Part shown: positions 5,227 through 33,562 of the stretch, piece by piece
Layout of the letters: every line of letters begins with the position of its first letter
How positions within the stretch are numbered: position 1 is the stretch's first letter
Origin: an uncultured Rickettsiales bacterium
Lineage (GTDB): Bacteria; Pseudomonadota; Alphaproteobacteria; Rickettsiales; UBA1997
Direction: 5' to 3'
Length of the DNA stretch: 33,687 nucleotides
NCBI GenBank assembly: GCA_905478165.1
Contig: CAJQHK010000023.1
Coordinates: 1 to 33,687, forward strand
Made by a program: the position numbers and the translations under genes
The notes under the pieces: generated by a model
What the model was told of the DNA's origin: nothing
What the model saw: only the letters and a program-made list of their open reading frames with translations
Database searches by the model: none

Positions 5227-8052
5227 ATGCAATTAGATACAAAATTAAATAAAACCGCTCTTTTCAGTTCAAACTTACCTTTTATAATTGAAATTTACCA
5301 AAAATATCTTCAGAACCCTAGTGATGTAGATGCTAGTTGGATAGAATTTTTTAGTGATAATTCTGATGATATTGAAAAATTAATTGGCGATAAAAATGGA
5401 GCTTCTTGGTCTAAAAAAGATATCTCTATCTTAAATTTTGATTATGATATTTCCTCAATGGCAAAGCCTGAAGAGAAAAAATCTAAAAAAATTAATAAAT
5501 CTGCCGATCTTGAGATTAAAATTAACAACTTAATTGCTGCTTACAAAAATTTTGGCCACTTAAATGCTGATTTAGATCCTCTCAAATTATCAAAAAGAGA
5601 GTTTCCAATTGAAATTGACCCAAAATTTCATAATATTTCTTCCGAGGAGTTAAATAAAGAAACCGACCTTAAAGGTAAATTAGGTTTAAAAAAAGTTAAA
5701 ATTATTGATATTGTTAATAAGTTAAACCAGATCTACTGCTCTAAGATTGCTTCAGAATTTGAATATATCAGAAACCCTGAGCAAAAAAAATTCTTAGAAG
5801 AGAGAATTGAACATTTAGCTGATGATAAAATATCTAATCAAAATCAAATTCGTATTTTAAAAGATGTTATTCGTACTGAAAATTTTGAGCAGTTCTTACA
5901 TAAAAGATTCCCTGGTGCCAAAAGATTCTCTGTTGAAGGTGGAGATAGCTCAATCAACGCCATTGAAGAGATTATTGATATTTCTGCCAAAAATCAGGTT
6001 AAAAAAATTATTATTGGAATGGCCCATAGGGGTCGTCTTAATATTTTAACTGGAGTTATGGGTAAGCCATATTCTCAAATGATTGCTGAATTTAAAGGTA
6101 AGGCTGGAATTCCAAAAGAGATCACTAAGTCTGGCGACGTGAAGTATCACATGGGCTACGCCAATTCTCGTGAGATTTATGGTAATAAAATTGACCTCTC
6201 TCTTGCCTTTAACCCTTCTCACTTAGAAGCTGTAAACTCCGTTGTCTGCGGTAGAGTTAGAGCTAAGCAAGATTCTTATGGTGACACGGAAAGAAAAACT
6301 GCTTTAGCAATTTTAATTCATGGTGACGCCGCTTTTGCTGGCCAAGGATCAGTTGCTGAAAATCTTATGATGAATGGCTTAGATGGTTATAATACTGGTG
6401 GTGTAATTCACATTATTACCAATAATCAAATTGGCTTTACTGCCAATCCTAATGATTCTCGTAGCACGCATTATGCCTCTGATCTTGCTAAAGCAATTGA
6501 TGCGCCAATTTTTCATGTTAATGGCGACGATGTCGAATCCGTTGTAAAAATTACTAAATTGGCAGCAGAATTTCGTCAAAAATTTAAAAAAGATATTATT
6601 TTAGATATTATTTGCTACAGAAGGTATGGTCATAATGAGGGGGATGAGCCTTTATATACTCAGCCAATTATGTATAAAATTATTAAAAATCACCCTACCC
6701 TAAAAAAAATCTATTCTGAAAAATTAATCTCTACCGGAATAATATCTACTGAAGAATTCAACAAATTAAATGATGAATTTAATTCCCATCTAGAAAAATC
6801 CTTCATCGAATCAGAGAAATTTGAAGCTAAACAGGGAGATTGGCTAGAGGGAGATTGGTCAAATATTAAAAATGGCGATGATAGAATCCCAGAAACTGGT
6901 ATTGATACTAAAAAATTAAAAGATATTTTCGCTAAAATTAGTGACATTCCAAAAGATTTTACTATAAATCCAAAAATTTCTAAACAATTAGAACAGAAAA
7001 TTATTGTTTTCAGTTCAGGAGAAAATATTAACTGGAGTATCGCGGAATCTTTAGCTTTTGGATCTTTAATTAAGGAAGGTTCTAATGTCAGAATTACTGG
7101 ACAAGATGCTGGAAGAGGAACCTTCAGTCATCGTCACTCAGTTTTAACTGACTATGATAGTGGTAAAAGAATTGACACTTTAAATAATATTGAAGGTGCA
7201 AATTATGAAGTTCATGACTCATTCCTTTCGGAATATGCAGTTTTAGGATTCGAGTATGGCTATTCCCTGTCTTCTCCAGATAGTTTAACTATTTGGGAAG
7301 CACAATTTGGAGATTTTGCCAATGGTGCGCAAATTATTTTTGATCAGTTTATCACTTCAAGTGAGGCAAAGTGGCTTAGAAAATCTGGCCTAGTTTGCTT
7401 ACTTCCTCATGGTTATGAAGGTCAAGGTCCAGAACATTCTTCCGCAAGATTAGAAAGATTTCTACAATCAGCGGCAGATGATAATATGAGAATTTGCAAT
7501 ATTACAAATCCCGCAAATTTCTTCCATGTTCTACGTCGCCAAATTCACAGCAAGGATAGAAAACCTCTGATTGTAATGTCACCAAAATCATTACTTCGTC
7601 ATAAATTGGCAGTTTCAAAACTAGAAGAATTTGGTCCCAAAACTAAATTTCAACCGATTTTAACTGAAAATTCTGATTCTAAAAAAATTAAGAAGGTAAT
7701 CCTATGTTCTGGTAAAATTTATTATGAGTTAATCCAAGATAGAGAAGAGAAAAAATTAGATAATGTCACAATTATTAGATTAGAAGAAATTTACCCATTT
7801 CCATCTGAATTGCTTAAAAAAGAATTACAAAAATATAAATTAGAAGAAATAATTTGGTGCCAAGAGGAATCAAAAAATATGGGCGCTTGGTTCTTTATTC
7901 GTGATTACATTGATGAAATTTTCAATGAACTAAATATCAATATCAAGTTAAAATATGCCGGCAGAGTTGCATCCGCATCTCCTGCTACTGGCTACGCCTC
8001 TTACCATAAGGAAGAGCAAAAGAAGCTAATTGATGAAGCATTAGCAATTTAA
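5227..8052 (+). CDS. sucA: 2-oxoglutarate dehydrogenase E1 component
   Basis: E1 decarboxylates 2-oxoglutarate with thiamine diphosphate and passes the succinyl group to the lipoyl arm of SucB in the citric acid cycle. The 941 residues match the family (about 930). The N-terminal peptide with [15 protein letters not shown] (28-42) is the usual E2-contacting start. Further motifs are GMAHRGRLN (264-272), SHLEAV (331-336), the thiamine-binding region [10 protein letters not shown] (365-374), NNQIGF (399-404), [12 protein letters not shown] (464-475) and [12 protein letters not shown] (626-637). The end, [12 protein letters not shown], is also typical. sucB follows after ten bases, so the two are cotranscribed. 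The third subunit, dihydrolipoamide dehydrogenase, is not in the window. Confidence 0.98.
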
Positions 8053-8062
8053 ATTAATTAAA

Positions 8063-9229
8063 ATGTCGATAGAAATACAAGTTCCAGTTTTAGGAGAGTC
8101 AGTTAGTGAAGCAACGATTGCAAAAATTTATAAAAATGTTGGCGACGCCATTGAGGCTGATGAAATATTGGTTGAATTAGAAACAGACAAAGTAACTTTA
8201 GAAGTTAATGCTCCTGCAAGTGGTGCAATCACTGAAATTAAATTCTCTGAAGGGGATAATGTTACAGTTGGTCAAATTCTAGCTATTATGAATGAAGGTG
8301 CATCTGGATCAGTGAAGATTGTAAAGCCCACAAATCAAGATACATCACCAATACAAAGAGAATCTACTTCAAGCAAAAAATCAGACCATTTATCTCCCGC
8401 ACCAAATAGAATTATTAATGAAAATTATCTTAGTAAAGACTCTATTACTGGTACCGGTAAGGATGGTAGAATTACTAAAGAAGATGCTTTAAATGCTGCT
8501 AAAAATCAAAATAATATTGTCATCGATGACAAGCCGATTGAGAGAGTTAGGATGTCTAAACTTCGTCAAATTGTTGCTAAAAGATTAAAAGAATCTCAAA
8601 ATACCGCTGCAATTTTAACAACTTTCAACGAGGTTGATATGAGCAATGTTATGGCACTTCGTAATGAATATAAGGATAAATTTTTAAAGAAACATGATGT
8701 AAAATTAGGATTCATGTCCTTCTTTGTTAAGGCTGCCATATCGGCTTTAAAAGATATTCCAGCCGTTAATGCTGAAATTGATGGAACTGACATTATTTAC
8801 AAAAATTATTATGATATTGGTGTTGCAGTTGGATCACCTCAAGGTTTAGTTGTTCCAGTTTTAAGAAAAGCTGATAAATTATCAGTTGCTGGTGTCGAAT
8901 CTGGTATCTTAGATTTAGCTTTAAAAGCAAGAGATGGTGAATTATCCATTTCCGACTTAACTGGCGCCACTTTTACAATTTCTAATGGCGGTGTTTATGG
9001 ATCATTGATGTCTACCCCAATTATTAACCCTCCACAATCAGGAATTCTGGGGATGCATAAGATTCAAGAAAGACCAATGGTAGTAAATGGTGAAATCAAG
9101 ATTAGACCGATGATGTATCTTGCACTTTCTTATGATCATAGAATTATTGACGGTAAGGAAGCTGTTACTTTCTTAGTAAAACTCAAGGAGTTAATTGAAG
9201 ATCCAAGAAGATTATTATTGGATATATAA
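8063..9229 (+). CDS. sucB: Dihydrolipoyllysine-residue succinyltransferase (E2), copy 1
   Basis: E2 forms the core of the 2-oxoglutarate dehydrogenase complex and transfers succinyl from its lipoyl arm to CoA. The 388 residues show three parts: the lipoyl domain with [12 protein letters not shown] and lipoylated K43; a linker followed by the E3-binding domain (about 111-146, ending [12 protein letters not shown]); and the acyltransferase domain with SYDHRIIDG, catalytic H359 and D363. It follows sucA by ten bases, the classical order, and is probably the ancestral locus. The stop is TAA. The coding sequence reads as identical at nucleotide level to the copy at 9735, with similarity ending at the start and stop codons. 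Confidence 0.98.
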
Positions 9230-9396
9230 TTTCCTATCTAAAATCTAAAAACTCCCTGGATATCGTTCTATTTTTTTAACTTTGTGATACTAACTTCTTT
9301 TAGATAAAATTGTTGCTAAATTTTAATATCCAACATTATACATCATATACAATTTTTATTTCAGCAAAAATTATTAAAGAAGTTTTAATTAGAACT

Positions 9397-9570
9397 ATTA
9401 CCAAGACTCACCCTTAAAATAAGCAATATATCAAAATATTCTTACCTATCATTTGTAAAAAATGACTAGAATATGACCGTATTTGACAAGGTTTTTTGTA
9501 AATTACAGGTAAAAAGATGCAGACAGATTACTTATATTTGTGACATATTTTTTAACATGGGTCTTGGTAT
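9397..9570 (+). repeat. Heavily decayed 171-bp mini-element between the two sucB copies
   Basis: The ends ATTACCAAGACTCACCC and ACATGGGTCTTGGTAT resemble the termini of the element at 33078-33248. Internally, CAAAATATTCTTACC, GTAAAAAATGAC, GACAAGGTTTTTTG and CAGACAGATTAC follow the same order and spacing, with total length 174 against 171. At 9572 a second left-type terminus (ATACCATTTCCTATTTATAA) begins directly, so two element ends abut and form the palindrome TGGTATAATACCA. Flanking 9230-9396 shows nothing recognisable. Confidence 0.6.
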
Positions 9571-9703
9571 AATACCATTTCCTATTTATAATATTAAATG
9601 AGCAATGGTACGATCTAGCTTTATCTCTTGAGTCTCTGATAAGTTCTAGATCCCAATGGAACAAATCAGGAATTGCAAAATAATATTCAATTACTTAAAA
9701 TAT

Positions 9704-9709
9704 TATACT
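9704..9709 (+). promoter_or_regulatory. Possible -10 box for sucB copy 2
   Basis: TATACT sits 25 bases before the second sucB ATG, inside AAAATATTATACT, a 13-base string that also forms the -10 region of the pilin promoter (3511-3523). No acceptable -35 box lies 16-18 bases upstream, so promoter activity is uncertain. Confidence 0.3.
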
Positions 9710-9734
9710 CAGTTTAAGTTAACTTTAAAGATAA

Positions 9735-10901
9735 ATGTCGATAGAAATACAAGTTCCAGTTTTAGGAGAGTCAGTTAGTGAAGCAACGATTGCAAAAATT
9801 TATAAAAATGTTGGCGACGCCATTGAGGCTGATGAAATATTGGTTGAATTAGAAACAGACAAAGTAACTTTAGAAGTTAATGCTCCTGCAAGTGGTGCAA
9901 TCACTGAAATTAAATTCTCTGAAGGGGATAATGTTACAGTTGGTCAAATTCTAGCTATTATGAATGAAGGTGCATCTGGATCAGTGAAGATTGTAAAGCC
10001 CACAAATCAAGATACATCACCAATACAAAGAGAATCTACTTCAAGCAAAAAATCAGACCATTTATCTCCCGCACCAAATAGAATTATTAATGAAAATTAT
10101 CTTAGTAAAGACTCTATTACTGGTACCGGTAAGGATGGTAGAATTACTAAAGAAGATGCTTTAAATGCTGCTAAAAATCAAAATAATATTGTCATCGATG
10201 ACAAGCCGATTGAGAGAGTTAGGATGTCTAAACTTCGTCAAATTGTTGCTAAAAGATTAAAAGAATCTCAAAATACCGCTGCAATTTTAACAACTTTCAA
10301 CGAGGTTGATATGAGCAATGTTATGGCACTTCGTAATGAATATAAGGATAAATTTTTAAAGAAACATGATGTAAAATTAGGATTCATGTCCTTCTTTGTT
10401 AAGGCTGCCATATCGGCTTTAAAAGATATTCCAGCCGTTAATGCTGAAATTGATGGAACTGACATTATTTACAAAAATTATTATGATATTGGTGTTGCAG
10501 TTGGATCACCTCAAGGTTTAGTTGTTCCAGTTTTAAGAAAAGCTGATAAATTATCAGTTGCTGGTGTCGAATCTGGTATCTTAGATTTAGCTTTAAAAGC
10601 AAGAGATGGTGAATTATCCATTTCCGACTTAACTGGCGCCACTTTTACAATTTCTAATGGCGGTGTTTATGGATCATTGATGTCTACCCCAATTATTAAC
10701 CCTCCACAATCAGGAATTCTGGGGATGCATAAGATTCAAGAAAGACCAATGGTAGTAAATGGTGAAATCAAGATTAGACCGATGATGTATCTTGCACTTT
10801 CTTATGATCATAGAATTATTGACGGTAAGGAAGCTGTTACTTTCTTAGTAAAACTCAAGGAGTTAATTGAAGATCCAAGAAGATTATTATTGGATATATA
10901 G
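9735..10901 (+). CDS. sucB: Dihydrolipoyllysine-residue succinyltransferase (E2), copy 2, ORF-exact duplicate
   Basis: This is a second full sucB encoding the same 388 residues with the lipoyl domain (K43), E3-binding domain and acyltransferase centre (H359, D363). Read by eye, the nucleotides match copy 1 throughout with a constant offset of 1672 and no indel. Identity starts two bases before the ATG and stops at the second base of the stop codon: TAA in copy 1, TAG here. The upstream 505 bases contain no sucA and are unlike the sucA-sucB junction. The gene is therefore alone, with at best a weak promoter of its own. It may raise E2 dosage, be a very recent copy or a gene-conversion product, or be an assembly artefact; the sequence alone cannot decide. 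Confidence 0.93.
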
Positions 10902-10975
10902 AAATTGTGCGAGAATAACTAAAACATTATCTTCGTACATTTCTGCAGTATTTAACCAACCTTGTTAATAAATTA

Positions 10976-11425
10976 ATGTTAATCACCATGTTTGAAAATA
11001 ACTCCCTCACTACAAGAATTGGAATCGGTAAATTAACAGGTTTTTCAATATCATTTTTTGGAATATTAATATTTAACTTCTTTACAGGTTATCAATTACC
11101 TACAATATTTGCTTTTGGTATAATATTATTCTATACAACAATTGGAGCTATCATTGGAATTTGTGGAGTCTACAGATATCATCCAGTTCTTAAATTTTCA
11201 ATGCCATGGTGGTTTAGATCTTCTATAATTGGAGTTTGGATGAATTTTATATTAGTATTATTAGCTTATGAACAATTAGAGGAGATCATTATTATAGCAT
11301 TTGGATTTGATACATTTTTCCGCTCACCATTTTGGTTTATTCTTGAGGGCGCTATTGCAGGATTAATTATTGGATATGTGGCTACAAAATTCGGTGGTGA
11401 AGGTAAAAAAATAATTGATAAATAA
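10976..11425 (+). CDS. Small integral membrane protein of unknown function
   Basis: This is a 149-residue protein not assigned to a named family. It has four hydrophobic segments at about residues 22-38, 43-64, 82-98 and 119-137, with charged ends and a C-terminal tail GGEGKKIIDK likely cytosolic. Conserved-looking features include aromatic PWWFRSS (77-83) and FRSPFWFILEGAIAG in the last helix. The ATG at 10976 is used; a second ATG four codons on (10988, MFENN) is equally possible. It starts 75 bases after the second sucB and ends before a hairpin, convergent with the M48 gene. Its codon use looks like that of its neighbours. Confidence 0.7.
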   Translation: MLITMFENNSLTTRIGIGKLTGFSISFFGILIFNFFTGYQLPTIFAFGIILFYTTIGAIIGICGVYRYHPVLKFSMPWWFRSSIIGVWMNFILVLLAYEQLEEIIIIAFGFDTFFRSPFWFILEGAIAGLIIGYVATKFGGEGKKIIDK

Positions 11426-11442
11426 CATGCCAACACTCATCT

Positions 11443-11481
11443 ATGTTATATTTAGTAATTAGCTTTAAATAAATATAACAT
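11443..11481. terminator. Hairpin between convergent genes, possible bidirectional terminator
   Basis: ATGTTATATTTA (11443-11454) and TAAATATAACAT (11470-11481) are perfect 12-bp inverted repeats with a 15-base loop. It lies between the 3' ends of the membrane protein gene (+) and the M48 gene (-). The stem is AT-rich and no T-run follows, so termination is plausible from position rather than proven by structure. Confidence 0.45.
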
Positions 11482-11556
11482 TATAACTAAGGAGTACTAT
11501 TGCACTTATATGAAGTCATTGAAGAGATAGTCTGAATTTGGCAAAAGGATAAATCT

Positions 11557-13446
11557 TTAGATCAATGTAATTGGACAGTCTAAAATGACCCCTATAGACC
11601 TCATTAATTCTACATTTCTAAATGAGTTCGTATCGTGATCAATGTAATTTGAAATCATTTTTAATAATTTTTCCTTATCAAGAACCTTTAATCTCTCTAA
11701 TTTATTCATAGCCTTATCTAAATCTGATATTTTTATATCTTTTTTTTCAAGAAAATTAAATTTAGATACATTATTTTTAGTTACCATCAACTCAAAACAC
11801 TTCCTACTATCATGAGACCTATCATTATGAGATATAACTGACAATAAAGTATCTACCTCATCTTTTATCGATAATAAGCTATATTTTTCACTCTTATTTA
11901 CTACTTTTGAGTTAAATTCTGCATCTAAATTATGAAATATAATTTTTGCAAGTGACCACTCAAAAAGACTAACTTCTTCATCTGATTCAATTAAAGCTAG
12001 TACATTATTCTTAAAAATATTATATTGCGATTTTGATAATTGCCTAAGACTTGGTACTGACATCTCTATTAATGATAAACGAAAAGAATTATCCATACTT
12101 ATCATTATGGGGTGTAATCTTTGTACTAATTTAAATACTACATCATCAGCTTTGTCTTCAAGAATCTTTAATTGCTTTTGATAATATTCATCATTTTTAA
12201 TCAATAGGCAATAAATTATAGCCCTAGCACCAAAACTCTCGTGAGCAGCTTCTTTAATTTCTTCTGGAATATTGAGAATTAAATTATGAGCTTTTTCAAT
12301 TTTTTCCTCTTCAATATTACCGATATTATTTAGCAGAGTAGCCATAGAAGATCTCTTAATATCTTCTTTTTTACTTCTTAAGGGGTTAGATTGGTATTCT
12401 ATTTTTTGGCTATTATTTTCTTCTAAATTAGAGTTAAATTCTCCATCCCAATTAGGATCTACCGCTAAAATTCTTTTTTCAAGTGGTGGATGAGTTGACA
12501 TCAATGATGTTAAGCTATGCGAAGATTCTCCAAAGAACATATGACTAACTTCATTTGCTTTAGGATTCTTAATTGTTGACCCGTGACTTAATGTACCAAT
12601 CTTTTTAAGAGCTGATGCAATTCCATCTTTATTCCTAGTAAATTGTACGGCACTAGCATCCGCCAAATATTCCCTCTGCCTACTGATTGAGGACTTAATT
12701 AATTTTCCAAAAAAATACCCCAAATATCCAACAATAAGCATTATGACTCCTACCGCTATTGCTCCGCTAGATTCTTTACTTCTGCTTCTACTTCTATAAA
12801 GTGAAGAATGAATGATTATTCTTCCTAAAATAGTAAAGAATAATATACCATGTAATATAGAAATTAATTTGATATTAATCTTCATATCCCCATTAAAAAT
12901 ATGACTAAATTCATGGGCAATTATAGCTTGCAATTCATCACGATTTAAATAATTAATAGTACCTTTTGTAACACCAATTACCGCATCAGAAAAATTATAA
13001 CCAGCAGCAAAGGCATTAATTGATTCTTCTTCTATAACATAAATTGGAGGTACAGAAATGCCGGATGCAATGGCCATCTCCTCAACAATATTTAGTAATT
13101 GCCTTTCTTTAAAGTCTCTACTATCAGAGGATATTAATTTTCCTCCCAGAGATATTGCCACATCCTTACCTCCAGAAGATAATGTCATTTTTTTAATAAA
13201 ACTAACAAGGACAATCACAAGAATAATACAAATACTACTATACAAAAAAAGCTTCTTATCAATAGATGTTAAAAAATCTAAAAAAATATTATACCCAGAT
13301 TGATCGTTATTGATATTTGGAATGTGATAATAAAAAGCAATTGAAAGATTAATAATGAATATAATTGATAAAATTGCCATGATGAACATAAATACTAATT
13401 TCTTAGTATTAAGTTTAGCTTTTTCTTGGTGAGCAAAGAAATTCAT
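11557..13446 (-). CDS. M48-family membrane zinc metalloprotease with long C-terminal extension
   Basis: The 629-residue protein has an N-terminal half like HtpX/M48 proteases: two membrane helices (about 17-39 and 66-84), the substrate-side VPPIYVIEEESINAFAAG (132-149), the zinc motif HEFSH (178-182), two more helices (about 195-213 and 229-249), and the third ligand Glu in SRQREYLADASAV (E259). A Ser-Arg-rich stretch RSRSRSK (218-224) precedes the fourth helix. About 300 residues after the catalytic domain form a soluble helical extension not usual in HtpX, which is about 290 long. The gene lies downstream of lemA, and lemA-M48 pairs recur in bacteria. Membrane protein quality control is the family role; the extension's job is unknown. 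HtpX proper is less likely because of the length. Confidence 0.88.
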   Translation of the reverse strand: MNFFAHQEKAKLNTKKLVFMFIMAILSIIFIINLSIAFYYHIPNINNDQSGYNIFLDFLTSIDKKLFLYSSICIILVIVLVSFIKKMTLSSGGKDVAISLGGKLISSDSRDFKERQLLNIVEEMAIASGISVPPIYVIEEESINAFAAGYNFSDAVIGVTKGTINYLNRDELQAIIAHEFSHIFNGDMKINIKLISILHGILFFTILGRIIIHSSLYRSRSRSKESSGAIAVGVIMLIVGYLGYFFGKLIKSSISRQREYLADASAVQFTRNKDGIASALKKIGTLSHGSTIKNPKANEVSHMFFGESSHSLTSLMSTHPPLEKRILAVDPNWDGEFNSNLEENNSQKIEYQSNPLRSKKEDIKRSSMATLLNNIGNIEEEKIEKAHNLILNIPEEIKEAAHESFGARAIIYCLLIKNDEYYQKQLKILEDKADDVVFKLVQRLHPIMISMDNSFRLSLIEMSVPSLRQLSKSQYNIFKNNVLALIESDEEVSLFEWSLAKIIFHNLDAEFNSKVVNKSEKYSLLSIKDEVDTLLSVISHNDRSHDSRKCFELMVTKNNVSKFNFLEKKDIKISDLDKAMNKLERLKVLDKEKLLKMISNYIDHDTNSFRNVELMRSIGVILDCPITLI

Positions 13447-13455
13447 TAATTAAAA

Positions 13456-13632
13456 ATTTTATTTTATATCTTTAAAGTAGTTTTTTCCAAATATTTTTAT
13501 TCATAAATTATTAACAAATGTCTACCCTACGTTAATTTATGCCAATGTGATGTAAGGCTTTTTGATAGCTAAGTTTAATAAGGATAAAAAAATCTGTTTT
13601 AACTTGTATATTTTAAAGGTAGGAATTTATAC
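13456..13632 (+). repeat. 171-bp mini-element copy between lemA and the M48 gene
   Basis: Same orientation as 33078-33248 and clearly related: CTTTAAAGTAGTTTTTTCC, ATTTTTATTCATAAATTA, ACAAATGTC and TGTAAGGCTTTTTGAT all align in order. The right terminus TTTAAAGGTAGGAATTTATAC is diverged but readable; the left terminus is mostly lost (ATTTTATATCTTTAAAG). The right end reaches position 13632, the first base of the lemA stop codon on the + strand. Confidence 0.8.
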
Positions 13633-14228
13633 TAAAACGAAACCTTAGGAACCTGTTTGATTTTCTCCTTATCTTCAAATTCAAGAAGAGTTCCATCCTG
13701 ACCATGTTTAAAAATAGAAGCTAAAATGACTTGCGGAAAGCTTTGTTTATAAGTGTTATAATCCATAATGCCGTCATTATATGCCTGACGAGCAAATGCA
13801 ACCTTGTTTTCAGTCGTAATTAATTCCTCCGAAAGTTGCATCATATTTTGGTTAGCTTTTAAGTCCGGATAAGCTTCCATGACTAAATTGAATTTACCCA
13901 TAGCATTACCCAAGGTAGTTTCGGCAGTAGCTAAATTTTTAATACTTCCTGCATCTATCGGATTGTCGGCAGCATTTTTTAGAGCATCTGAGGCATGATT
14001 CCTAGCTTCAACGACATTTTGTAAAGTCTCTTTCTCGTGAGCAAGGTAACCTTTTGCAGACTCAATAAGGTTTGGTATAAGATCATATCTTCTCTTCATC
14101 TGAACCTCAATTTGTGAAAAAGAATTTTTAAAGCGATTTTTTAGGGCAACTAATTTATTATAAATAGAAATTAAATAAATCACCGTAAGAATTAGAGCTA
14201 CTATAGTTATTATTGTTGAAGTGGTCAT
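13632..14228 (-). CDS. lemA: LemA family membrane-anchored protein
   Basis: This is a 198-residue LemA protein. An N-terminal membrane helix (about 5-25, no typical cleavage site) is followed by the family block YNKLVALKNRFKNSFSQIEV and KRRYDLIPNLIESAKGYL (46-63), then EARNHA (74-79). The rest is the four-helix bundle seen in LemA structures, including AYPDLKAN and NKVAFARQAYND. The molecular role is not settled; it is often coupled genetically to M48 proteases or to envelope functions. Here it sits upstream of an M48 gene with a mini-element between them. The stop codon (13632-13634) touches that element, so the last residues (QVPKVSF) may have been altered by the insertion. guaA ends 48 bases upstream. 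Confidence 0.95.
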   Translation of the reverse strand: MTTSTIITIVALILTVIYLISIYNKLVALKNRFKNSFSQIEVQMKRRYDLIPNLIESAKGYLAHEKETLQNVVEARNHASDALKNAADNPIDAGSIKNLATAETTLGNAMGKFNLVMEAYPDLKANQNMMQLSEELITTENKVAFARQAYNDGIMDYNTYKQSFPQVILASIFKHGQDGTLLEFEDKEKIKQVPKVSF

Positions 14229-14276
14229 GCTTAAATAAGTTAAAATGTGGCTAAAAATAAGAAATATAAACTATAA

Positions 14277-15812
14277 TTACTCCCATTCAATTGTTCCGGG
14301 TGGCTTTGAAGTGATATCATAAGTTACCCTATTAACCCCCCTAACCTGAGAGATTATCTTTCCAGAAAGATCTGCTAAAAATTTTGTATCAAAATGATAA
14401 ATATCAGCTGTCATACCATCTACCGAAGTTACGGCACGAATTGACAAAACATATTCATAAGTTCTTTCGTCACCCATCACGCCAACCGTTCTTACTGGAA
14501 GTAAGACGCAAAATGCCTGCCAGATCTCATCATACAGATTATTATTTTTTAATTCTGTAATATAAATAGCATCAGCCTTTTGTAAGATATTAATTTTTTC
14601 TTCAGATATTTCTCCCAATATTCTGATGGCCAGACCGGGTCCTGGAAAAGGGTGTCTCTTAATAATTTTATCAGGAAGACCCAACTCCTTACCTAATTTT
14701 CTAACTTCATCCTTAAATAAAGTTTTTACAGGCTCAATTAATTTTAGCTTCATATCTTCTGGCAAGCCACCAACATTATGGTGCGATTTAATAGTTTTGC
14801 TATTACCGGAATTTGGATGAGAAGACTCAATAATATCAGGATATAATGTTCCTTGTGCTAAAAATTTAGCATTAATCTTGATTGATTCTTCGTCAAAAAT
14901 ATCAATAAAAGTCTTGCCTATGATTTTTCTCTTTTTTTCGGGATCGGAAATTCCTTCTAAATTTTTTAAAAATACGTCCTTAGCGTCGACATAAACTAAA
15001 TTAATCTTAAAATGATCCTCAAAAACTGCCTTTACCTCCTTACCCTCGTCTTTTCTCAAAAGACCATGATCAACAAAGATGCAAACTAAATTATTGCCAA
15101 CTGCCTTATGAATAAGAGCCGCAACAACAGAAGAATCGACGCCACCACTAAGGCCGCATATTACCTTCTCATTGCAAACCTCTTCTTTAATTTTAGCAAT
15201 TTGTTCATTCATAAAATTACCCATATTCCAATCTTGCTTACATCCGGCAATATTTAAAATAAAGTTAGAGATTAATTTTTGACCTCCTAGTGAATGAGAA
15301 ACTTCTGGATGAAATTGTACACCATAAATTTTTCTTTTGTTACATTTAATGGCAGCAAAAGGTGCGTTATTAGTTGTGGCAATAATTTCAAAATTATCAG
15401 GAATTTTAGTCATAACATCACCATGAGACATCCAAACTTGATTCTCTTTAGAAGAAAAGTTAGCAAAAAGATCTGAGTTTGATTTAATGTTAATCATAGC
15501 TTTGCCAAACTCTCTATCGTCAGCTGGCTCAACCTTGCCACCAAGTAATTTAGCAATTAGTTGTTGACCATAACAAATTCCTAAGATTGGAATATTGAGG
15601 TCAAAAATTTTCTTATCAATTTCGGGGGAAAAATTTTCATTAACAGAATTTGGGCCACCAGAAAAAATAATAGCCTTTGGAGATATTTTCTTGATATCCT
15701 CCAAGGTAATATCACAATTTTTAACAATAGAAAAAACTGATAATTCCCTGACTCTTCTGGCAATTAACTCTGTAACTTGGCTACCAAAATCTATTATTAG
15801 AACTGAATTCAT
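14277..15812 (-). CDS. guaA: GMP synthase (glutamine-hydrolysing)
   Basis: GuaA converts XMP to GMP using ATP and ammonia released from glutamine. The 511-residue chain is full length. The class I glutamine amidotransferase domain shows IDFGSQVTELIARR at the start, GICYGQQL with nucleophile C80, and GVQFHPEVSH with H168 and E170. The ATP-pyrophosphatase domain has the loop GLSGGVDSS (220-228). The C-terminal dimerisation domain includes RHPFPGPGLAIRILGE and ends in the signature KPPGTIEWE. The gene starts 25 bases after the 3' end of tRNA-Gly on the same strand, so one transcript could carry both, with the mRNA 5' end made by tRNA processing. Confidence 0.98.
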   Translation of the reverse strand: MNSVLIIDFGSQVTELIARRVRELSVFSIVKNCDITLEDIKKISPKAIIFSGGPNSVNENFSPEIDKKIFDLNIPILGICYGQQLIAKLLGGKVEPADDREFGKAMINIKSNSDLFANFSSKENQVWMSHGDVMTKIPDNFEIIATTNNAPFAAIKCNKRKIYGVQFHPEVSHSLGGQKLISNFILNIAGCKQDWNMGNFMNEQIAKIKEEVCNEKVICGLSGGVDSSVVAALIHKAVGNNLVCIFVDHGLLRKDEGKEVKAVFEDHFKINLVYVDAKDVFLKNLEGISDPEKKRKIIGKTFIDIFDEESIKINAKFLAQGTLYPDIIESSHPNSGNSKTIKSHHNVGGLPEDMKLKLIEPVKTLFKDEVRKLGKELGLPDKIIKRHPFPGPGLAIRILGEISEEKINILQKADAIYITELKNNNLYDEIWQAFCVLLPVRTVGVMGDERTYEYVLSIRAVTSVDGMTADIYHFDTKFLADLSGKIISQVRGVNRVTYDITSKPPGTIEWE

Positions 15813-15837
15813 GAAATCTATCTTGAAGAACGTAAAC

Positions 15838-15912
15838 TGGAGCGGGTGAAGGGGTTCGAACCCTCGACCCCAACCTTGGCAAGGTTGTGCTCTACCACTG
15901 AGCTACACCCGC
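15838..15912 (-). tRNA. tRNA-Gly (anticodon GCC)
   Basis: The reverse strand folds into a complete cloverleaf of 75 nt: acceptor GCGGGTG/CACCCGC, D arm GCTCAGTGGTAGAGC, anticodon arm CAACC-TTGCCAA-GGTTG, T arm around TTCGAAC, discriminator T and an encoded CCA. The anticodon GCC reads GGC and GGU codons. It lies between the DUF4116-like gene and guaA. Confidence 0.97.
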
Positions 15913-15955
15913 AAAGAAGATGATTATAAATTACTAAAATTAAAAAGACAAATGA

Positions 15956-17329
15956 TTAATCTATATTTGGATCAATGACACTGCTGTTATAATAAGCTCC
16001 TAGCTGATAGAATTTACGATAATTATTTGATTTTGTCTTCTGAAAAATTTGAAAATATTCAGAATATTTATCTTCAACCTTAAAAATAATTGACATATCA
16101 TCACCATCCTGATACAAATCCCAAATATAAAATTTCTTATGACCATTTTTATAGGCAAGATTAGTCTTTATATTTTTATCATAGATAGCGTCCACAATAT
16201 CTAATTTCCACTTACCTTCATTCAAAATTGCAATTGCGGTAAGGGAGTTGACATTGATAATTTCTTCATCAATTTTACTATCAAATAAATGTCTTACTCC
16301 ATATAAATTAAAAATCACTTCTTGATCAGAAATCTTCCAAATAGAAACCGGAGTCAAAGAGTTTATGGCGGAATCATCAATTCTTACTGATAGAAAATTA
16401 TTTATTACCTCTATTAATTTTGGATACTGAGAAAAATCCTTCTCCCAGCCATTTTTAAAATCACTAGCGAGAAGCATTTTGTATCTATCATTACCATCAT
16501 AAGAATTGTATTTTTTCCATTTTAGAGGGTATTTTTGAAAAAATAACCTGTCTTCAAGGAAATTTTTTGCCTGATTAGTTATTTTATACCCCTTAGAAAG
16601 ACTGATTCCTGCATCAACATTAGAATATTCATTTTTTAAATATTTTTTAAAAAATAAATTCTGACTCACACTAGGAATCATTTTTACGTCCTTCACCCAT
16701 CCTTCATTTTGATATTTAGCACTTAGAAAATTAAAATTATACGGATGAGAAATTAGGGCTCGCTCTACGATTCCAATATTATCCCTCTCTTCTTCCGGAA
16801 TTAATAAAAAAATAGTTGGATCATGCTCTAGAGCCATAAGAATTAAATCGACATCCGTAAGTAATTGATCAGAAAGATATAAATATGATTTTGGATTAAT
16901 ATTAATTAGCTCTACAGCAAATTCCTTATCATCTAGTAATCTAAGATCAGCGTATCTAAGAATATCAATATCTATTCTGAGTGAATCTAAAATAAATGCT
17001 TTATTCATTTTTAGATCTTTAGATGCGTATTGTATGATCTTGTGATCTAAAGGTAGAAATTTTAAAACAAAAAAATGGTTTGATCTCAAAAGAGGATCTG
17101 CATATTTAATGTAATGAGGATCTAACTCATTAATTAATATTGAAAGCAATGTCTGACTTCGTTTTTGACAACGACTCAAATTAAAAATAAAATTTTTATC
17201 AGTTTTTATTTTGATTAATAAATTAGCTATTTTTTTCTCAGAAAGTGAGCAAATTGGTAAGGTAGAATGTGCAATGTTAGAAAAGATAAAAAATACAATA
17301 ATAAATAATATTTTTATCCCTCTGCTCAT
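15956..17329 (-). CDS. Secreted protein with DUF4116-like repeats
   Basis: The 457-residue protein opens with a signal peptide (basic MSRGIK, hydrophobic core to about 19, likely cut near AHS at 20-22). Residues about 58-205 contain five or six repeats with a 24-26 residue period, each with a hydrophobic helix, an Asp, and a YAS/YAD-like turn, for example IIQYASKDLKMNKAFILDSL, ILRYADLRLLDDKEFAVELI and YLYLSDQLLTDVDLILMALE. This resembles DUF4116 repeats found in proteins of host-associated bacteria and giant viruses. The C-terminal part (about 280-450) looks like a small mixed alpha/beta domain and was not identified. The DUF4116 assignment is from pattern recognition; the function is unknown, and a secreted role at the host interface is an inference. 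Confidence 0.6.
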   Translation of the reverse strand: MSRGIKILFIIVFFIFSNIAHSTLPICSLSEKKIANLLIKIKTDKNFIFNLSRCQKRSQTLLSILINELDPHYIKYADPLLRSNHFFVLKFLPLDHKIIQYASKDLKMNKAFILDSLRIDIDILRYADLRLLDDKEFAVELININPKSYLYLSDQLLTDVDLILMALEHDPTIFLLIPEEERDNIGIVERALISHPYNFNFLSAKYQNEGWVKDVKMIPSVSQNLFFKKYLKNEYSNVDAGISLSKGYKITNQAKNFLEDRLFFQKYPLKWKKYNSYDGNDRYKMLLASDFKNGWEKDFSQYPKLIEVINNFLSVRIDDSAINSLTPVSIWKISDQEVIFNLYGVRHLFDSKIDEEIINVNSLTAIAILNEGKWKLDIVDAIYDKNIKTNLAYKNGHKKFYIWDLYQDGDDMSIIFKVEDKYSEYFQIFQKTKSNNYRKFYQLGAYYNSSVIDPNID

Positions 17330-17349
17330 AAAATTATTTTATTAAAATA

Positions 17350-17393
17350 ATACCAATTCCCATTTATAATATATTATAGATGGGAATTGCTAT
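17350..17393. repeat. 44-bp near-perfect palindrome made of two mini-element termini
   Basis: The arms 17350-17371 (ATACCAATTCCCATTTATAA plus TA) and 17372-17393 are inverted repeats matching at 20 of 22 positions, with no spacer. The arms are the terminal repeat of the 171-bp element family (ATACCAATTCCCA), so this looks like an element reduced to its two ends. It lies just upstream of the DUF4116-like gene and 40 bases past the nuoK stop. Confidence 0.8.
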
Positions 17394-17433
17394 AAGTATC
17401 TATCCACCAACCACACCACAAATATTTCAAATA

Positions 17434-17748
17434 TTATCCTTGCATCCTTGGCTTCAGATTAATATCAATTCCAGACCGAAGATTGTAATAAACAATCAAA
17501 ATAGCGATGCCAATTGCAGCCTCAGCTCCTGCGATAACTAAGATAAAAATTGCAAAAACTTGACCTAACAAATCCTGATTGTAAGTTGAAAAAGCAACCA
17601 TATTAATATTGATGCTTAGAAAAATTAATTCTATGGACATTAGGATAGTCAATAAATTTTTTCTATTCATAAAAATACCAGAAACACCAACGGTAAAGAT
17701 AATAGTAGCTAAAATAACAAAGTGCATTATGTCGATATCTGGTATCAT
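17434..17748 (-). CDS. nuoK: NADH-quinone oxidoreductase subunit K
   Basis: NuoK is a small three-helix antiporter-like subunit in the membrane arm of complex I. The 104 residues fit the family. The conserved membrane Glu residues in MSIELIFLSININMVAF (37-53) and IAGAEAAIGIAIL (72-84) are present. It is the last nuo gene here: nuoL, which normally follows, is absent, and the next features are a palindrome and the unrelated DUF4116-like gene. nuoJ ends 31 bases upstream. Confidence 0.97.
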   Translation of the reverse strand: MIPDIDIMHFVILATIIFTVGVSGIFMNRKNLLTILMSIELIFLSININMVAFSTYNQDLLGQVFAIFILVIAGAEAAIGIAILIVYYNLRSGIDINLKPRMQG

Positions 17749-17779
17749 GTTAGTGAATTAATTTTTGCTGTTTTCAAGT

Positions 17780-18409
17780 TTAAACATCCAACCCCTTATT
17801 GCTTTTAACCTTAATAATTTCAATAGAGTCTTCTTTTCTACGAAAAACTTGTTTTGATATATTTTGTACCTTTTTAAAATTATCGCTCTCTTTTAGAGTT
17901 AAAATAATAGCGCCGATCATGGCAACAAATAAAATTAAACCAGAAAGTTGGAACTGCAAGAAAAACTCGGTATATAAAATATTACCAATAGCTTTGGCAT
18001 TAGAAATATCATCTGGCATCCTATGATGCTTAAGAAAGAAGTATGCCTTACCAGTAATTTCATCTGGCTTAAGAGAGTTGCTAAGTATGATATAAATCTG
18101 AGTTACAAAAACAACAGAAACTAACGAAAGAACAGGTACATACTTTTTAAGATTATATTCTTTTTTAGCTTCAACATCAAGCATCATTACCACAAAAAGG
18201 AATAATATTGCGATCGCACCAACATAGACAATAATTAAAAGCATTGCTAAAAATTCTGCACCAATCATTAAAAATAAAGCGGAGGCGTTAACGAAAGCAA
18301 AAATTAAAAACATTGCTGAAGTAATTGTACTTTTTGAGAATACAACGAAAATCGAAGATAAAATCAAAAGGATTGAAAACTGATAAAAGAGTATAGTAGA
18401 AAATAACAT
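17780..18409 (-). CDS. nuoJ: NADH-quinone oxidoreductase subunit J
   Basis: NuoJ is a five-helix membrane subunit of complex I. The 209 residues contain helices at about 5-25, 28-48, 54-76, 92-112 and 150-170, with the typical FVNASALFLMIGAEFLAMLL and IVYVGAIAILFLFVVMML, a well-kept stretch of NuoJ. The C-terminal tail is basic (SKQVFRRKEDS). Its ATG shares one base with the nuoI stop (TAATG), a sign of translational coupling. Confidence 0.95.
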   Translation of the reverse strand: MLFSTILFYQFSILLILSSIFVVFSKSTITSAMFLIFAFVNASALFLMIGAEFLAMLLIIVYVGAIAILFLFVVMMLDVEAKKEYNLKKYVPVLSLVSVVFVTQIYIILSNSLKPDEITGKAYFFLKHHRMPDDISNAKAIGNILYTEFFLQFQLSGLILFVAMIGAIILTLKESDNFKKVQNISKQVFRRKEDSIEIIKVKSNKGLDV

Positions 18410-18885
18410 TAATTAGAAGAATTTAATTCAATATTTTTTTGCAAAGCAACCTCCCAACGGTCACCATTATCAAGTAATTTTTGCTTATCATAATACAATT
18501 CCTCACGAGTCTCGGTAGCATATTCAAAATTTGGCCCTTCAACAATAGCATCAACCGGACAAGCTTCGGCGCAAAGACCACAATAAATACACTTTATCAT
18601 GTCAATGCCATAGGCAGTTGTTTTTCTACTACCATCATCTCTTTCTTCGGCTTCAATAGTGATAGCGCTTGCCGGACAAACCGCCTCACATAATTTGCAA
18701 GCAATGCACCTTTCTTCACCATTCGGATAGCGACGAAGGGCGTGTTCACCTCTAAATCTAGGGCTAATTGGCCCCTTTTGATAAGGATAATTAATAGTAA
18801 CTTTTTTTTTAAACATATAAAAAAAAGTAAGAGCCATGCCCTTAATAATTTCTTTAATAGTAAATGCCGTAATAAATCTTATCAT
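18409..18885 (-). CDS. nuoI: NADH-quinone oxidoreductase subunit I (two [4Fe-4S] clusters)
   Basis: NuoI is the ferredoxin-like subunit carrying clusters N6a and N6b at the base of the peripheral arm. The start is placed at 18885 (MIRFITAF), giving 158 residues, because alphaproteobacterial NuoI proteins begin this way and it avoids overlap with nuoH. A start at 18906 would add seven residues and a 17-base overlap. Motifs are [20 protein letters not shown] (28-47), [13 protein letters not shown] (Cys 60, 63, 66, 70) and [16 protein letters not shown] (Cys 99, 102, 105, 109). The sequence is very close in style to rickettsial NuoI, including the [15 protein letters not shown] block before the first cluster. 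Confidence 0.96.
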
Positions 18886-18889
18886 AAAA

Positions 18890-19882
18890 TTAAGATAGAA
18901 AAACAATATAGGATGAAGTCAGAACCACAGATAATAATGATAATGGTAAAAAAACTTTCCAACCAAGTCTCATTAATTGATCATAACGATATCTAGGAAG
19001 GGATGCCCTAACCCAAATAAAACAAAATAATAAGAATAGTATTTTTATTAAAAACCATATAACTCCGGGAATAAAGGATAAAGCCTCAACAGGAGGAAGC
19101 CAACCACCAAGAAATAAAATTACAGCCATAGCGGACATCAAAATCATATTGGCATATTCACCAAGAAAGAACATGGCAAACGGCATCGAGCTATATTCCA
19201 CATTATAGCCAGCAACCAATTCAGACTCAGCCTCAGGTAAATCAAAAGGTAAGCGATTTGTTTCAGCTAGAATTGAAATAAAAAATAGAATAAAAACAGG
19301 AAATAAAGGAAAAACATACCACATACCCTTTTGAGCAAGAATAATTTCAGTTAAATTTAGTGAACCACTAAGTAAAATAACATTAATGATAATTAAACCA
19401 ATCGAAACCTCGTAAGAGATCATTTGAGCAGAAGAGCGAATCGCTCCTAGAAAAGCATATTTAGAATTAGAAGACCAGCCAGCAATTATGATCCCATAAA
19501 CACCGAGAGAGGAGGCTGCTAAAATGTAAATTACGCCAACATTGATATCTGCAATTACAAAATTTTCTGAAAATGGCACTACTGCCCAACCAATAAGAGC
19601 TAAAACAAAAGTAATTACCGGAGCCAAAAGAAAGAGAAATTTATTTGCGTTAGTTGGGATAATAACCTCCTTGAACATCAATTTAACACCATCACAAAGA
19701 GGCTGTAACAAACCAAATGGACCATTAACATTGGGACCCTTACGAAGTTGCATAGCAGCGATAACTTTCCTCTCCATTAACGTTAAATAAGCGACCGCAC
19801 CAAGCAATGGAAGAATAATTAAGAGAATTCTACCAATGATTTCTAAAGAATTTGTTAAATATATTAAATAAATATCTGCCAT
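18890..19882 (-). CDS. nuoH: NADH-quinone oxidoreductase subunit H
   Basis: NuoH is the eight-helix membrane subunit that joins the two arms of complex I and forms part of the quinone cavity. The 330 residues match the family. Seen are [20 protein letters not shown] (35-54), the conserved loop [20 protein letters not shown] followed by NVEYSS, and the end [20 protein letters not shown]. It is the first gene of the nuoH-I-J-K unit. nuoG, its usual upstream neighbour, is not present: upstream are a mini-element and rlmN, with 155 bases between the nuoH start and the element. Confidence 0.97.
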
Positions 19883-20037
19883 TCAAAAAGTAATTATTCA
19901 CACAAAAAAGACTCTAAAAAAACCTGACCATGTCATTTTGACTCAATCTTGTTAGCCAAAATACTAACATTCTAAGTTTTTTAGATACTTCTAAGGTGAA
20001 TATATTGTAAATATTATTTAATTCAATCGAAATTTTA

Positions 20038-20205
20038 TCCTAAAAAGAGCGGTAGAAAATAAATTTAGGTGACCAGATCTTGATACAGATAAATTTTTGA
20101 TAAAGAAATTCTAATAAACCCTTCGGTGAGCGAATCTTTTTTATTAAAGTTAAATGTAATTAGGAGATGGTTGTGTAAATTTACTTTCTACCGCTCTTTT
20201 TAGGA
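20038..20205. mobile_element. Intact 168-bp MITE-like element, second family
   Basis: Thirty-base terminal inverted repeats (20038-20067 and 20176-20205) match at 29 of 30 positions; the outer part reads TCCTAAAAAGAGCGGTAGAA. A TTA triplet directly flanks each end (20035-20037 and 20206-20208), a possible target duplication. The interior has no ORF. It differs from the ATACCAATTCCCA family elsewhere in the window. It sits between nuoH and rlmN, 17 bases from the rlmN stop. Confidence 0.85.
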
Positions 20206-20222
20206 TTATGGATGTAATAAAA

Positions 20223-21302
20223 TTAATTACCACCGATTTCAGATTTTAATTGACCACAAGCAGCCATGACATCTTGACCTTTAGTTTTTCGAATTATCGC
20301 CTGTATACCATATTTTTTAATAATATTATTAAATTTCATAATTTTATTGCGACTTGATGATGTATATGGCGAATCTTTCCAGGGATTAAAAGGGATAATA
20401 TTAATTAAAACTGGTAATTTGTATTTTTTAATCAAATGTACCAAATCCATAGCCTGATCTTCTGAATCATTGACCCCGTTAAGCATGACATATTCAAAAG
20501 TGATTCTAGATGTTGGATTTTCCTTAATGTAATAAACGCAAGACTCCATCAAATCAGCAATTCCATATTTGTTATTTAATGGCATAATTTTACTACGAGT
20601 TTTATCGTCAGCCGCATGTAAAGAAATTGCTAAAATAGTTTTAATATCGTGAGCAAAATCTTTAATTTGTGGTACAATTCCAGAAGTTGAAATAGTAATC
20701 TTTCTTTTAGAAAAGTTTAATCCAGATTTAAAGTTAAGAATGTCAACTGACTCCTTAACATTCTTGTAATTAAAAAATGGTTCACCCATCCCCATATAAA
20801 CAATCGAAGTGATATTTCTTGATTTTTCATTATCATTAATTGACCAATCATCTAAAAGATCCTTCGCCAATAAATATTGCCCAATAATTTCTCCAATTGT
20901 TAAATTTCTAGCAAATTTTTGAGTACCGGTGTGGCAAAATTTACAGGTTAAAATGCAACCAACTTGAGAAGAAATGCACAAAGTACCGCGATCCTTTTCT
21001 GGTATGAAAACCATTTCAATTTCACGATTATCATTAAGTTTTACCAGCCATTTACGAGTTCCATCTTTCGAAAGATTGTCAGAAGAGTTTTTTAAACGTG
21101 AAATATCGTAAGATGCCTCCAGTTTCTTTTGGACTTCCTTAGATATATTAGACATCTCACCAAAAGTTTTGACACCCTTAACATAAAGCCAATTCCAAAT
21201 TTGCCCTGCCCTAAATTTTTTTTCACCAAACCTAACCATTTCATCTACTAACTGATTAAAAGTTAGGTCCATGAGGAAGATTTTGCCATTTTCTAAAATC
21301 AT
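20223..21302 (-). CDS. rlmN: Dual-specificity 23S rRNA / tRNA adenine-C2 methyltransferase RlmN
   Basis: RlmN is a radical-SAM enzyme that methylates A2503 of 23S rRNA and A37 of some tRNAs. The 359 residues include the N-terminal FGEKKFRAGQIWNWLY (25-40), the cluster motif CILTCKFC (116-123) inside SSQVGC...HTGTQ, YMGMGEP for SAM binding, and SLHAADDKTRSKIMP. The C-terminal MAACGQL holds C349, the cysteine methylated during catalysis. The ATG shares one base with the hemW stop. An ATG ten codons later (21272, MDLTFNQ) may be the real start because the first ten residues are not family-like. Confidence 0.96.
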   Translation of the reverse strand: MILENGKIFLMDLTFNQLVDEMVRFGEKKFRAGQIWNWLYVKGVKTFGEMSNISKEVQKKLEASYDISRLKNSSDNLSKDGTRKWLVKLNDNREIEMVFIPEKDRGTLCISSQVGCILTCKFCHTGTQKFARNLTIGEIIGQYLLAKDLLDDWSINDNEKSRNITSIVYMGMGEPFFNYKNVKESVDILNFKSGLNFSKRKITISTSGIVPQIKDFAHDIKTILAISLHAADDKTRSKIMPLNNKYGIADLMESCVYYIKENPTSRITFEYVMLNGVNDSEDQAMDLVHLIKKYKLPVLINIIPFNPWKDSPYTSSSRNKIMKFNNIIKKYGIQAIIRKTKGQDVMAACGQLKSEIGGN

Positions 21303-22459
21303 TAATTTAAATTTTCAAGAATTTCAAAAATTATCCTATTGGTAAGTAACTTACCTTTTTTGGTAATTTTAATCCGATTTTCATCGCAAAGCAAGAAGTT
21401 TCCTGCGGTCATACGCTTCAATTTATCAATTTTTATTAAATCTTTAATATTTTTGTCAAAATTTTCTAAAAAAGCATCATTCTCAATGCCGTCCTCAAGC
21501 CTTAAACCCATCAATAGAAACTCTTCAAGGAATTCTTTTTTGGTAATTTTTTCTTGTTTTTGTATTCCAGAACCTGTTTTTTCTACTTTTTCTAACCATT
21601 TCTCTGGTAAGGAAAGCATTTGTACGGCATTTCGAGAATCATCAAAATTTATTCTACTGTGAGCACCTGCACCAATTCCTAAATACTCTTTGGATGTCCA
21701 ATAAGATAAATTATGTCGTGATTGATATCCTTTTTTAGCATAGTTTGAAATTTCATAATCAATAAAATCATTTTTTTTCATGATCTCATCTGTTTTTTCA
21801 TAAAATTGCGCTGCAAGATCATCCTTAGGCATAATAAAATCACCATCTTGGTGTTTTTTGTAAAATTTTGTGCCCTTTTCAATGGTTAGCTGATACAAGG
21901 AGAGATGTTTTGTTTGAAAATCTAACGCTCTTTGAAGTTCGATTTTCCAATCTTCTATTTGTTGTTCTGGGCGACAATAAATTAAATCAAAAGAGAAATT
22001 ATCAAAAATTTTGGCAGTAATTTCTATAGTTTTCATTGCCTCAGAAGCACTATGATTTCGTCCTAAAAATTTTAAATCATTATCATTTAAAGATTGAATT
22101 CCAAGAGAAATACGATTAATCCCTATTCTTTTAAAATCTTGAAATTTTTTTGCCTCAAAAGATGTTGGGTTAGCCTCTAAAGTTATTTCGCAATTTTCAT
22201 CAATTTGCCATAAATCATTAATTTTAATCATTATTTTTTCTAAAAAATAAATACTCATCAATGAAGGTGTACCACCGCCAAAAAATATGGTTTTTATTTT
22301 TCTTTCGCCAATTTTTTTAGCAAAAAACTCCATTTCAGCTAAATAAGCATTCAGAAAATTATCCTCTTCAATTTCATTTTTAGTGTGAGAATTGAAGTCG
22401 CAATATGGACATTTTGACAGACAAAATGGATAATGGATGTAAAGATGTAAGTTTTTCAT
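21302..22459 (-). CDS. hemW: Radical-SAM haem chaperone HemW (coproporphyrinogen oxidase-like)
   Basis: HemW binds haem and hands it to apoproteins; it was formerly named as a HemN paralogue. The start is set at 22459 (MKNLHLYIHYPFC), giving 385 residues, because an upstream extension to 22540 would overlap prfB and encode non-family residues. The cluster motif CLSKCPYCDF (C13, C17, C20) lacks the extra features of true HemN, and RHNLSYWTSKEYLGIGAGAH is the HemW signature. Also seen are FFGGGTPSL and GIQSLND. The C-terminal HemN-C domain includes LLMGLRLEDGI. It sits between prfB and rlmN on the same strand. Confidence 0.93.
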   Translation of the reverse strand: MKNLHLYIHYPFCLSKCPYCDFNSHTKNEIEEDNFLNAYLAEMEFFAKKIGERKIKTIFFGGGTPSLMSIYFLEKIMIKINDLWQIDENCEITLEANPTSFEAKKFQDFKRIGINRISLGIQSLNDNDLKFLGRNHSASEAMKTIEITAKIFDNFSFDLIYCRPEQQIEDWKIELQRALDFQTKHLSLYQLTIEKGTKFYKKHQDGDFIMPKDDLAAQFYEKTDEIMKKNDFIDYEISNYAKKGYQSRHNLSYWTSKEYLGIGAGAHSRINFDDSRNAVQMLSLPEKWLEKVEKTGSGIQKQEKITKKEFLEEFLLMGLRLEDGIENDAFLENFDKNIKDLIKIDKLKRMTAGNFLLCDENRIKITKKGKLLTNRIIFEILENLN

Positions 22460-22493
22460 TAAATTTGTTAATTTAAAAATAATACACTCCTTT

Positions 22494-23576: not shown

Positions 23577-23579
23577 CAA

Positions 23580-24281
23580 TTATAAATTATCTTTTGCCAC
23601 GAAAGATGGAGACAATCCAAACCTTGTTACAATTTTCTTATTTTCAATCTTAATTTCACTACAATTTTGCGGAGCTAAATCTTTTGTGATTAAGAAAATA
23701 CCATATTCAGCAAAAAAATTAGCAAAATATCTCTCTACCATACTATAAATTATGTTATTCTTACGATTAAGGTAGGTTTTGTTTTCAATAGCAATATTCA
23801 TTTTATTACAAAGATTTTTAAAATCCTTAATGGTACAAAAGTGAATATTAGGTGTATTGTACCATTCATGAGGAATAGACTCCCTCACTGGCATTTTGCC
23901 ACCAAAACAAAGTTGAAATCTATTTTGGAAATGAGCGAAATTTGGAAAAGAAACGATAGCAAATTTAGCAATCCTAAGAATTTCTTCAATCATAGTTTTG
24001 GGGTCATTTAAAGCCTGTAAAGTCTGACTTAAAATGGCATAATCAAAATGATTATCAGGATAATTAGTCAAATCCTTTTCGCAATTACCCTGGACAACAG
24101 AAATCCCGCGAGAAATCGCTCCGGAAACTAATTTTTGCTCAATCTCAAGTCCGCGAACATCGATATTTTTCTTCTCTTTTAAGTATTTTAAAAGCTCTCC
24201 GTCACCGCAACCAATATCAAGCACCTTTGAATTAGGTTCAATAAAATTTGCAATTGTCTTAAAATCAGATCTAATATTCAT
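23580..24281 (-). CDS. metW: Methionine biosynthesis protein MetW
   Basis: MetW is a methyltransferase-fold protein that partners with MetX in methionine synthesis. The ATG at 24281 (MNIRSDFKTI, 233 residues) is chosen over an in-frame GTG two codons upstream because the family starts this way. The SAM-type loop is VLDIGCGDGELLKYL (20-34). MetW-specific blocks are LSQTLQALNDP, SFPNFAHFQNR and HEWYNTPNIHFCT (138-150). The gene overlaps the end of the orphan gene by 11 bases and precedes prfB by three. In most proteobacteria metW directly follows metX; here the orphan gene separates them. Confidence 0.94.
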   Translation of the reverse strand: MNIRSDFKTIANFIEPNSKVLDIGCGDGELLKYLKEKKNIDVRGLEIEQKLVSGAISRGISVVQGNCEKDLTNYPDNHFDYAILSQTLQALNDPKTMIEEILRIAKFAIVSFPNFAHFQNRFQLCFGGKMPVRESIPHEWYNTPNIHFCTIKDFKNLCNKMNIAIENKTYLNRKNNIIYSMVERYFANFFAEYGIFLITKDLAPQNCSEIKIENKKIVTRFGLSPSFVAKDNL

Positions 24282-25191: not shown

Positions 25192-25199
25192 AATTTTAT

Positions 25200-33558: not shown

Positions 33559-33562
33559 GGTA

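Follow-up and report, generated by a model that had tools for sequence, protein, structure and literature searches.

How do two genes come to share every nucleotide of their reading frame, with unrelated DNA on either side? The window (the whole stretch of 33,687 nucleotides analyzed here, which is contig C23 of the genome under study, G000, from a bacterium related to Rickettsia) raises this question, as sucB occurs twice in it in direct orientation. The genome comprises 1,198,634 bases in 31 contigs and is 97.2% complete. If real, the pair would place an E2 gene of the citric acid cycle among the bacterial genes that are kept as homogenized pairs, and this in a small genome of 1.2 Mb; it would also suggest selection for more E2. 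The two tuf genes of the same genome can be used as a yardstick for identity that is exact to the open reading frame (ORF).

Two identical sucB frames with unrelated flanks

Self-comparison of the window aligns the two sucB copies over 1168 bp at an offset of 1672 with zero mismatches (Table 1). No other repeat in the window exceeds 175 bp, and chance is rejected as the cause of the identity. The 5′ edge of the repeat lies two nucleotides (AA) before the ATG, and the 3′ edge lies inside the stop codon, at its second base; this codon is TAA in copy 1 (9227–9229) and TAG in copy 2 (10899–10901). Both ORFs are intact with 388 codons, and both encode the lipoyl, E3-binding, and 2-oxoacid dehydrogenase acyltransferase domains. 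These three domains together with the place beside sucA identify the product as SucB, the dihydrolipoyl succinyltransferase (E2o). The genome has one other E2 gene, located on C1, which is more distant (32–38% identical to sucB). Copy 1 starts just behind sucA with 10 bases in between, and copy 2 follows after 505 bases containing repeats. The flanks of the two copies show no likeness beyond that of shuffled sequences, 141 of 500 shuffles being as good on the 5′ side and 304 of 500 on the 3′ side. Hence, the preliminary description is correct in what it says of the repeat itself, namely the offset of 1672 without a nucleotide difference, the extent from two bases before the ATG into unlike stop codons, the distances of ten and 505 bases, and the unrelated flanks.

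Table 1. Features of the sucB region, with positions counted in the window
Feature	Position	Strand	Remarks
sucA, 2-oxoglutarate dehydrogenase E1 (941 aa)	5227..8052	+	Pfam E1_dh, OxoGdeHyase_C, 2-oxogl_dehyd_N; orthologue upstream of sucB in G002
Exact repeat, copy 1 (1168 bp)	8061..9228	+	self-comparison
sucB copy 1 (388 aa), stop TAA	8063..9229	+	Pfam 2-oxoacid_dh 3.4e-85, Biotin_lipoyl, E3_binding; sucA-sucB order as in G002
Spacer of 505 bases with dispersed repeats	9230..9734		type I 9242–9308, type II 9393–9580, type III 9568–9640
Exact repeat, copy 2 (1168 bp)	9733..10900	+	self-comparison
sucB copy 2 (388 aa), stop TAG	9735..10901	+	repeat of copy 1; position not seen in G002, which has no second sucB
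orf149, hydrophobic, 149 aa, downstream of copy 2	10976..11425	+	no Pfam or PHROG match

Copy 1 stands in the place shared with the sister species

The genome G002 (82% complete) belongs to a sister species, whose sucB is 83% identical to that of G000 at the nucleotide level and 87% at the amino acid level. Its gene order is sucA, sucB, and an ABC transporter gene, with a single sucB. The DNA alignment of the two genomes spans sucA and sucB and stops seven bases beyond the stop codon of copy 1. Copy 1 is thus in the position shared with G002, and copy 2 is peculiar to G000 among the genomes searched. Beyond the first bases, the 3′ flank of copy 1 and that of sucB in G002 are not alike (394 of 500 shuffles scored as high), and the next gene differs too. 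The ABC transporter gene, adjoining sucB in G002, is separated from it in the window by a 17-kb block (9229–26402), most genes of which are on other contigs in G002. Specifically, the M48 peptidase gene and lemA are on C41 of G002 and the genes from guaA to metX on its C12. A counterpart of the spacer and orf149 was sought in the compared stretches of G002, which yielded only a short repeat match and hits at chance level.

The order-wide search covered 262 genomes, with G000 among them. A strong sucB match at E ≤ 1e-90 was obtained in 210, and two such matches in G000 alone; fragments fall below this cut-off, and exact copies may go unnoticed in bins from short reads. When the family was searched with a loose threshold, 41 of 61 genomes gave matches, 37 of them through a SucB-type gene (counted at E ≤ 1e-118), with two full copies only in G000. 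The question posed in the preliminary description, whether related genomes have one or two sucB loci, is therefore answered by a single strong match in all but G000 of the 210 genomes that have one (1/210). The ten best named relatives comprise six entries named Rickettsiales bacterium, two Rickettsia typhi (metagenome bins), one Alphaproteobacteria, and one Proteobacteria bacterium. At the level of titles and abstracts, we found no literature on an exact sucB pair.

In G023, contig C6 ends within the first 78 nucleotides of sucB (C6:1–78), which are identical to the sucB start on C149; the two contigs share five nucleotides before the ATG, and farther upstream their DNA agrees at 155 of 181 aligned positions. 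This second start may be a strain variant or a second copy. For G270, two contigs carry SucB-like pieces, with identities of 58% and 76%. No sucB was found in G001, which is of the same genus and 63% complete; its contig C89 (1–400) has sucA, then a palindromic element some 330 bp long, and then the contig end. In G018, sucB is alone on C34, the 6 kb before it containing no match to sucA.

Frame-exact edges recur at the tuf genes

The preliminary description called a boundary exact to the ORF strange, on the ground that gene conversion usually leaves diverged edges. The tuf genes speak against this view. They break the assembly of G000, which contains the middle of tuf only once; the comparison therefore covers the ends only. 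On the 5′ side (C31 and C17), the flanks have no base in common before the ATG, and the 234 nucleotides held by both contigs have two differences. On the 3′ side (C16 and C19), the last 127 bases are identical and the identity ends inside the stop codon, which is TAG followed by rpsJ (Pfam Ribosomal_S10) on C16, and TAA followed by tRNA-Trp on C19. All three relatives examined, G004, G006, and G010, have similar edges in contig-end stretches of 77–233 bp, the identity starting 0, 1, and 6 nucleotides before the ATG and ending 0, 6, and 3 nucleotides beyond the stop codon, respectively. Between genomes, the tuf matches are 79–86% identical. The frame-exact edges at sucB are therefore not strange, as the same edges occur at the genome's own tuf pair and in 3/3 relatives.

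Such edges follow from conversion between paralogues with differing flanks, which limits the identity to the shared frame. For the tufA/tufB pair of Salmonella, the passages available from one study assume that conversion is unable to extend past the repeated genes (PMC5485169). According to the available part of another study, on 26 prokaryote genes with long-lasting concerted evolution, tuf evolves concertedly in 29 orders; the words sucB, oxoglutarate, and dehydrogenase have no occurrence in the main text of this source (PMC6053082). As for the recombinase, recA has one match over the cut-off in G000 (TIGR02012, 550 bits, C5:23049–24008).

Spacer and downstream region

The spacer has 48 matches within G000 at E ≤ 1, counting itself, and is largely made of dispersed repeats of three types, which are a possible substrate for rearrangement. 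No terminator-like site was found on the + strand of 7900–11600, spacer included; copy 2 could therefore be transcribed by read-through from sucAB, or from a promoter of its own. The promoter scan gave 29 sites versus 19.5 ± 4.3 in shuffles, a result that carries no weight in our conclusions. The stretch 9696–9735 has a 41-bp match (34/41) in AT-rich DNA on C2, comprising the end of a gene that we take to be ispE-like and the DNA following it. The possibility that orf149 indicates foreign DNA was considered and rejected, since this ORF has no relative on viral contigs and no Pfam or PHROG match, and besides its own, only one weak match (G022) in 49 genomes. At the right end of the contig, 33561–33687 is a repeat common to the ends of C13, C24, and C28 (125 bp).

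Flank decay is at most part of the answer

We then inspected how well flanks can be recognized at the distance between G000 and G002, where 84 of 135 four-fold sites (62%) are identical in sucB and 55% in sucA. Nine intergenic regions have conserved neighbors in both genomes, three of which are too short and two of which carry a tRNA gene. The two tRNA-bearing regions are above all shuffles. Of the four tRNA-free regions, three likewise exceed all 1000 shuffles, with matches of 35 to about 77 bases, and the fourth does not. Intergenic flanks are thus not in general unrecognizable at this distance, which indicates that flanks common since the split would often leave a trace; simple decay of the flanks is hence not the full answer. 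The last 500 bases of sucA have no clear remnant in the spacer (121 of 200 shuffles as good). The 5′ flank of sucB in G002, which is the end of sucA, is slightly above most shuffles when compared with the 5′ flank of copy 2 (36 of 500 as good). As there is no clear trace beside copy 2, an origin of copy 2 elsewhere, with a later move next to copy 1, is favored.

Origin of the sucB pair

The reading that we favor, with barely more than an even chance, is that a lineage-specific sucB paralogue with differing flanks was brought beside copy 1, and that the two frames were homogenized by gene conversion. The old locus would be the one behind sucA, and a second locus with different flanks would have been gained in the lineage of G000. 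Copy 2 would first have stood at a separate place and then been rearranged to 505 bp downstream of copy 1, with the dispersed repeats of the spacer as a possible joint. Gene conversion of the RecA type, confined to alike sequence, would have made the frames identical from start to stop codon, and decay of once-common flanks may have contributed. The flanks are unrelated most likely because copy 2 stood elsewhere, the lineage being heavily rearranged and the spacer a chain of repeats. We infer conversion as the cause, juxtaposition through repeats, and expression of both copies; that the E2 core is affected through dosage would be a guess. The uncoupling of E2 dosage from sucA suggested in the preliminary description is likewise conjectural; in G018, sucB already stands apart from any sucA match within 6 kb upstream.

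Several observations agree with conversion. The paralogues are closer to each other than to the orthologue, being 100% identical within G000 versus 83% to G002; the likeness includes the synonymous sites, as the 1168 bp have no difference; and the identity stops at the ends of the frame, just as it does at tuf. The pair was found in one species and not in two or more, G000 being the only case among the 210 genomes with a strong match and the 37 family genomes with a SucB-type gene. Hence, it works like a concertedly evolving pair, with membership not proven, and a pair in a single genome cannot show concerted evolution across species, which is the usual proof. Against the homogenized paralogue stands the fact that direct repeats separated by only 0.5 kb are easily deleted, which speaks for youth of the pair or for selection. 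The two differences in the compared part of the tuf pair, where sucB has none, also count against it. The preliminary description had listed conversion of an old paralogue with diverged flanks among its options. Conversion between frames with differing flanks is the best supported part of it, given the tuf control, and the decay of flanks is supported only in part, given that three of four control regions are recognizable.

An effect of the assembly is unlikely as the whole explanation. Two loci or strain variants would share sucB, and the assembler would have walked the loop sucB-spacer-sucB once; the real copies may then be slightly different, may number one, two, or more, or may occur in part of the population. 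Among the 62 contig ends, all ten end-to-end overlaps of at least 20 bases are exactly 127 bp long, and all ten shared outward ends are 125–127 bp long, the tuf contigs breaking likewise. Exact overlaps of 127 bp suggest a de Bruijn assembler with a word length of about 127, of which they are typical. Repeats above 127 bp are not spanned by the graph word, and the genome is in 31 contigs. It follows from these overlaps that the order, the copy number, and the absence of mismatches are inferred by the assembler. The 1168-bp repeat is probably one graph edge, for which the walk sucA-sucB-spacer-sucB-orf149 is natural and probably does not come from single molecules; small differences between the copies could have been collapsed. 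Nevertheless, junctions made by a graph assembler require real read words slightly above the word length. Both the sucB-spacer and the spacer-sucB junctions still need words of about 128 bases from reads, so they should be real. With sucB at both of its ends, the spacer leaves few other readings, such as a circle or several turns, and the frame-exact edges are not artefacts of word length. The artefact proposed in the preliminary description thus applies to order, copy number, and exact identity, and should not apply to the junctions; part of the exactness of sucB may come from the assembler.

It is improbable that copy 2 is a very recent, ORF-exact insertion 505 bp downstream, made without conversion by a fortuitous or unexplained event such as a template switch or the insertion of a fragment. 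A young age would suit the zero differences, the absence of a second full copy from G002 and the other relatives searched, and the missing remnant of common flanks, though flanks are often recognizable to G002; it would also be natural for tandem direct repeats, which are unstable. However, a random fragment would very rarely have both ends within two nucleotides of the start and stop codons, and the same edges occur at tuf with an ordinary cause. A search for a target-site duplication at copy 2 (matches of 4–20 bases) found only AAAT, which lies within the repeat's own letters.

Ordinary tandem duplication that included flanking DNA, with decay of the non-coding part and conversion keeping the frame, is very improbable. 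In its favor, the copies lie next to each other in the same direction; with four-fold sites only 55–62% identical between G000 and G002, a duplication of that age would have had time for its flanks to decay; and the 5′ flank of G002 gives the slight likeness described above. On the other hand, neither the sucA end nor the 3′ flank of copy 1 has left a clear trace in any of the three shuffle comparisons within G000, and three of the four other tRNA-free intergenic regions are still partly recognizable in G002. Very improbable too is that a process copying one frame exactly from start to stop and dropping it nearby made copy 2 very recently. The unusual copy mechanism of the preliminary description lacks positive support, the candidate target-site duplication not going beyond a four-base match.

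Comparison with known systems

Tandem gene duplication and amplification resemble the sucB pair in having adjacent copies in direct orientation, but carry flanking DNA along, whereas the sucB pair is without duplicated flanks as far as visible. The long-lasting concertedly evolving genes, as described in the part of PMC6053082 at hand, are, like sucB, genes of complexes or pathways, with paralogues that are alike at synonymous sites too; they recur across species, whereas the sucB pair is found in one genome here. The closest likeness is with the tufA/tufB pairs, judged by the available passages of PMC5485169 and PMC6053082. Those pairs are ancient, far apart, and common to many species, in contrast to the sucB copies, which lie 505 bp apart in one genome here, and the tuf pair of G000 has two differences in the compared part where the sucB pair has none. 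In both cases, the copies are near-identical, the identity is confined to the frame, and the flanks are unrelated, as seen for tuf in G000 itself and in three relatives.
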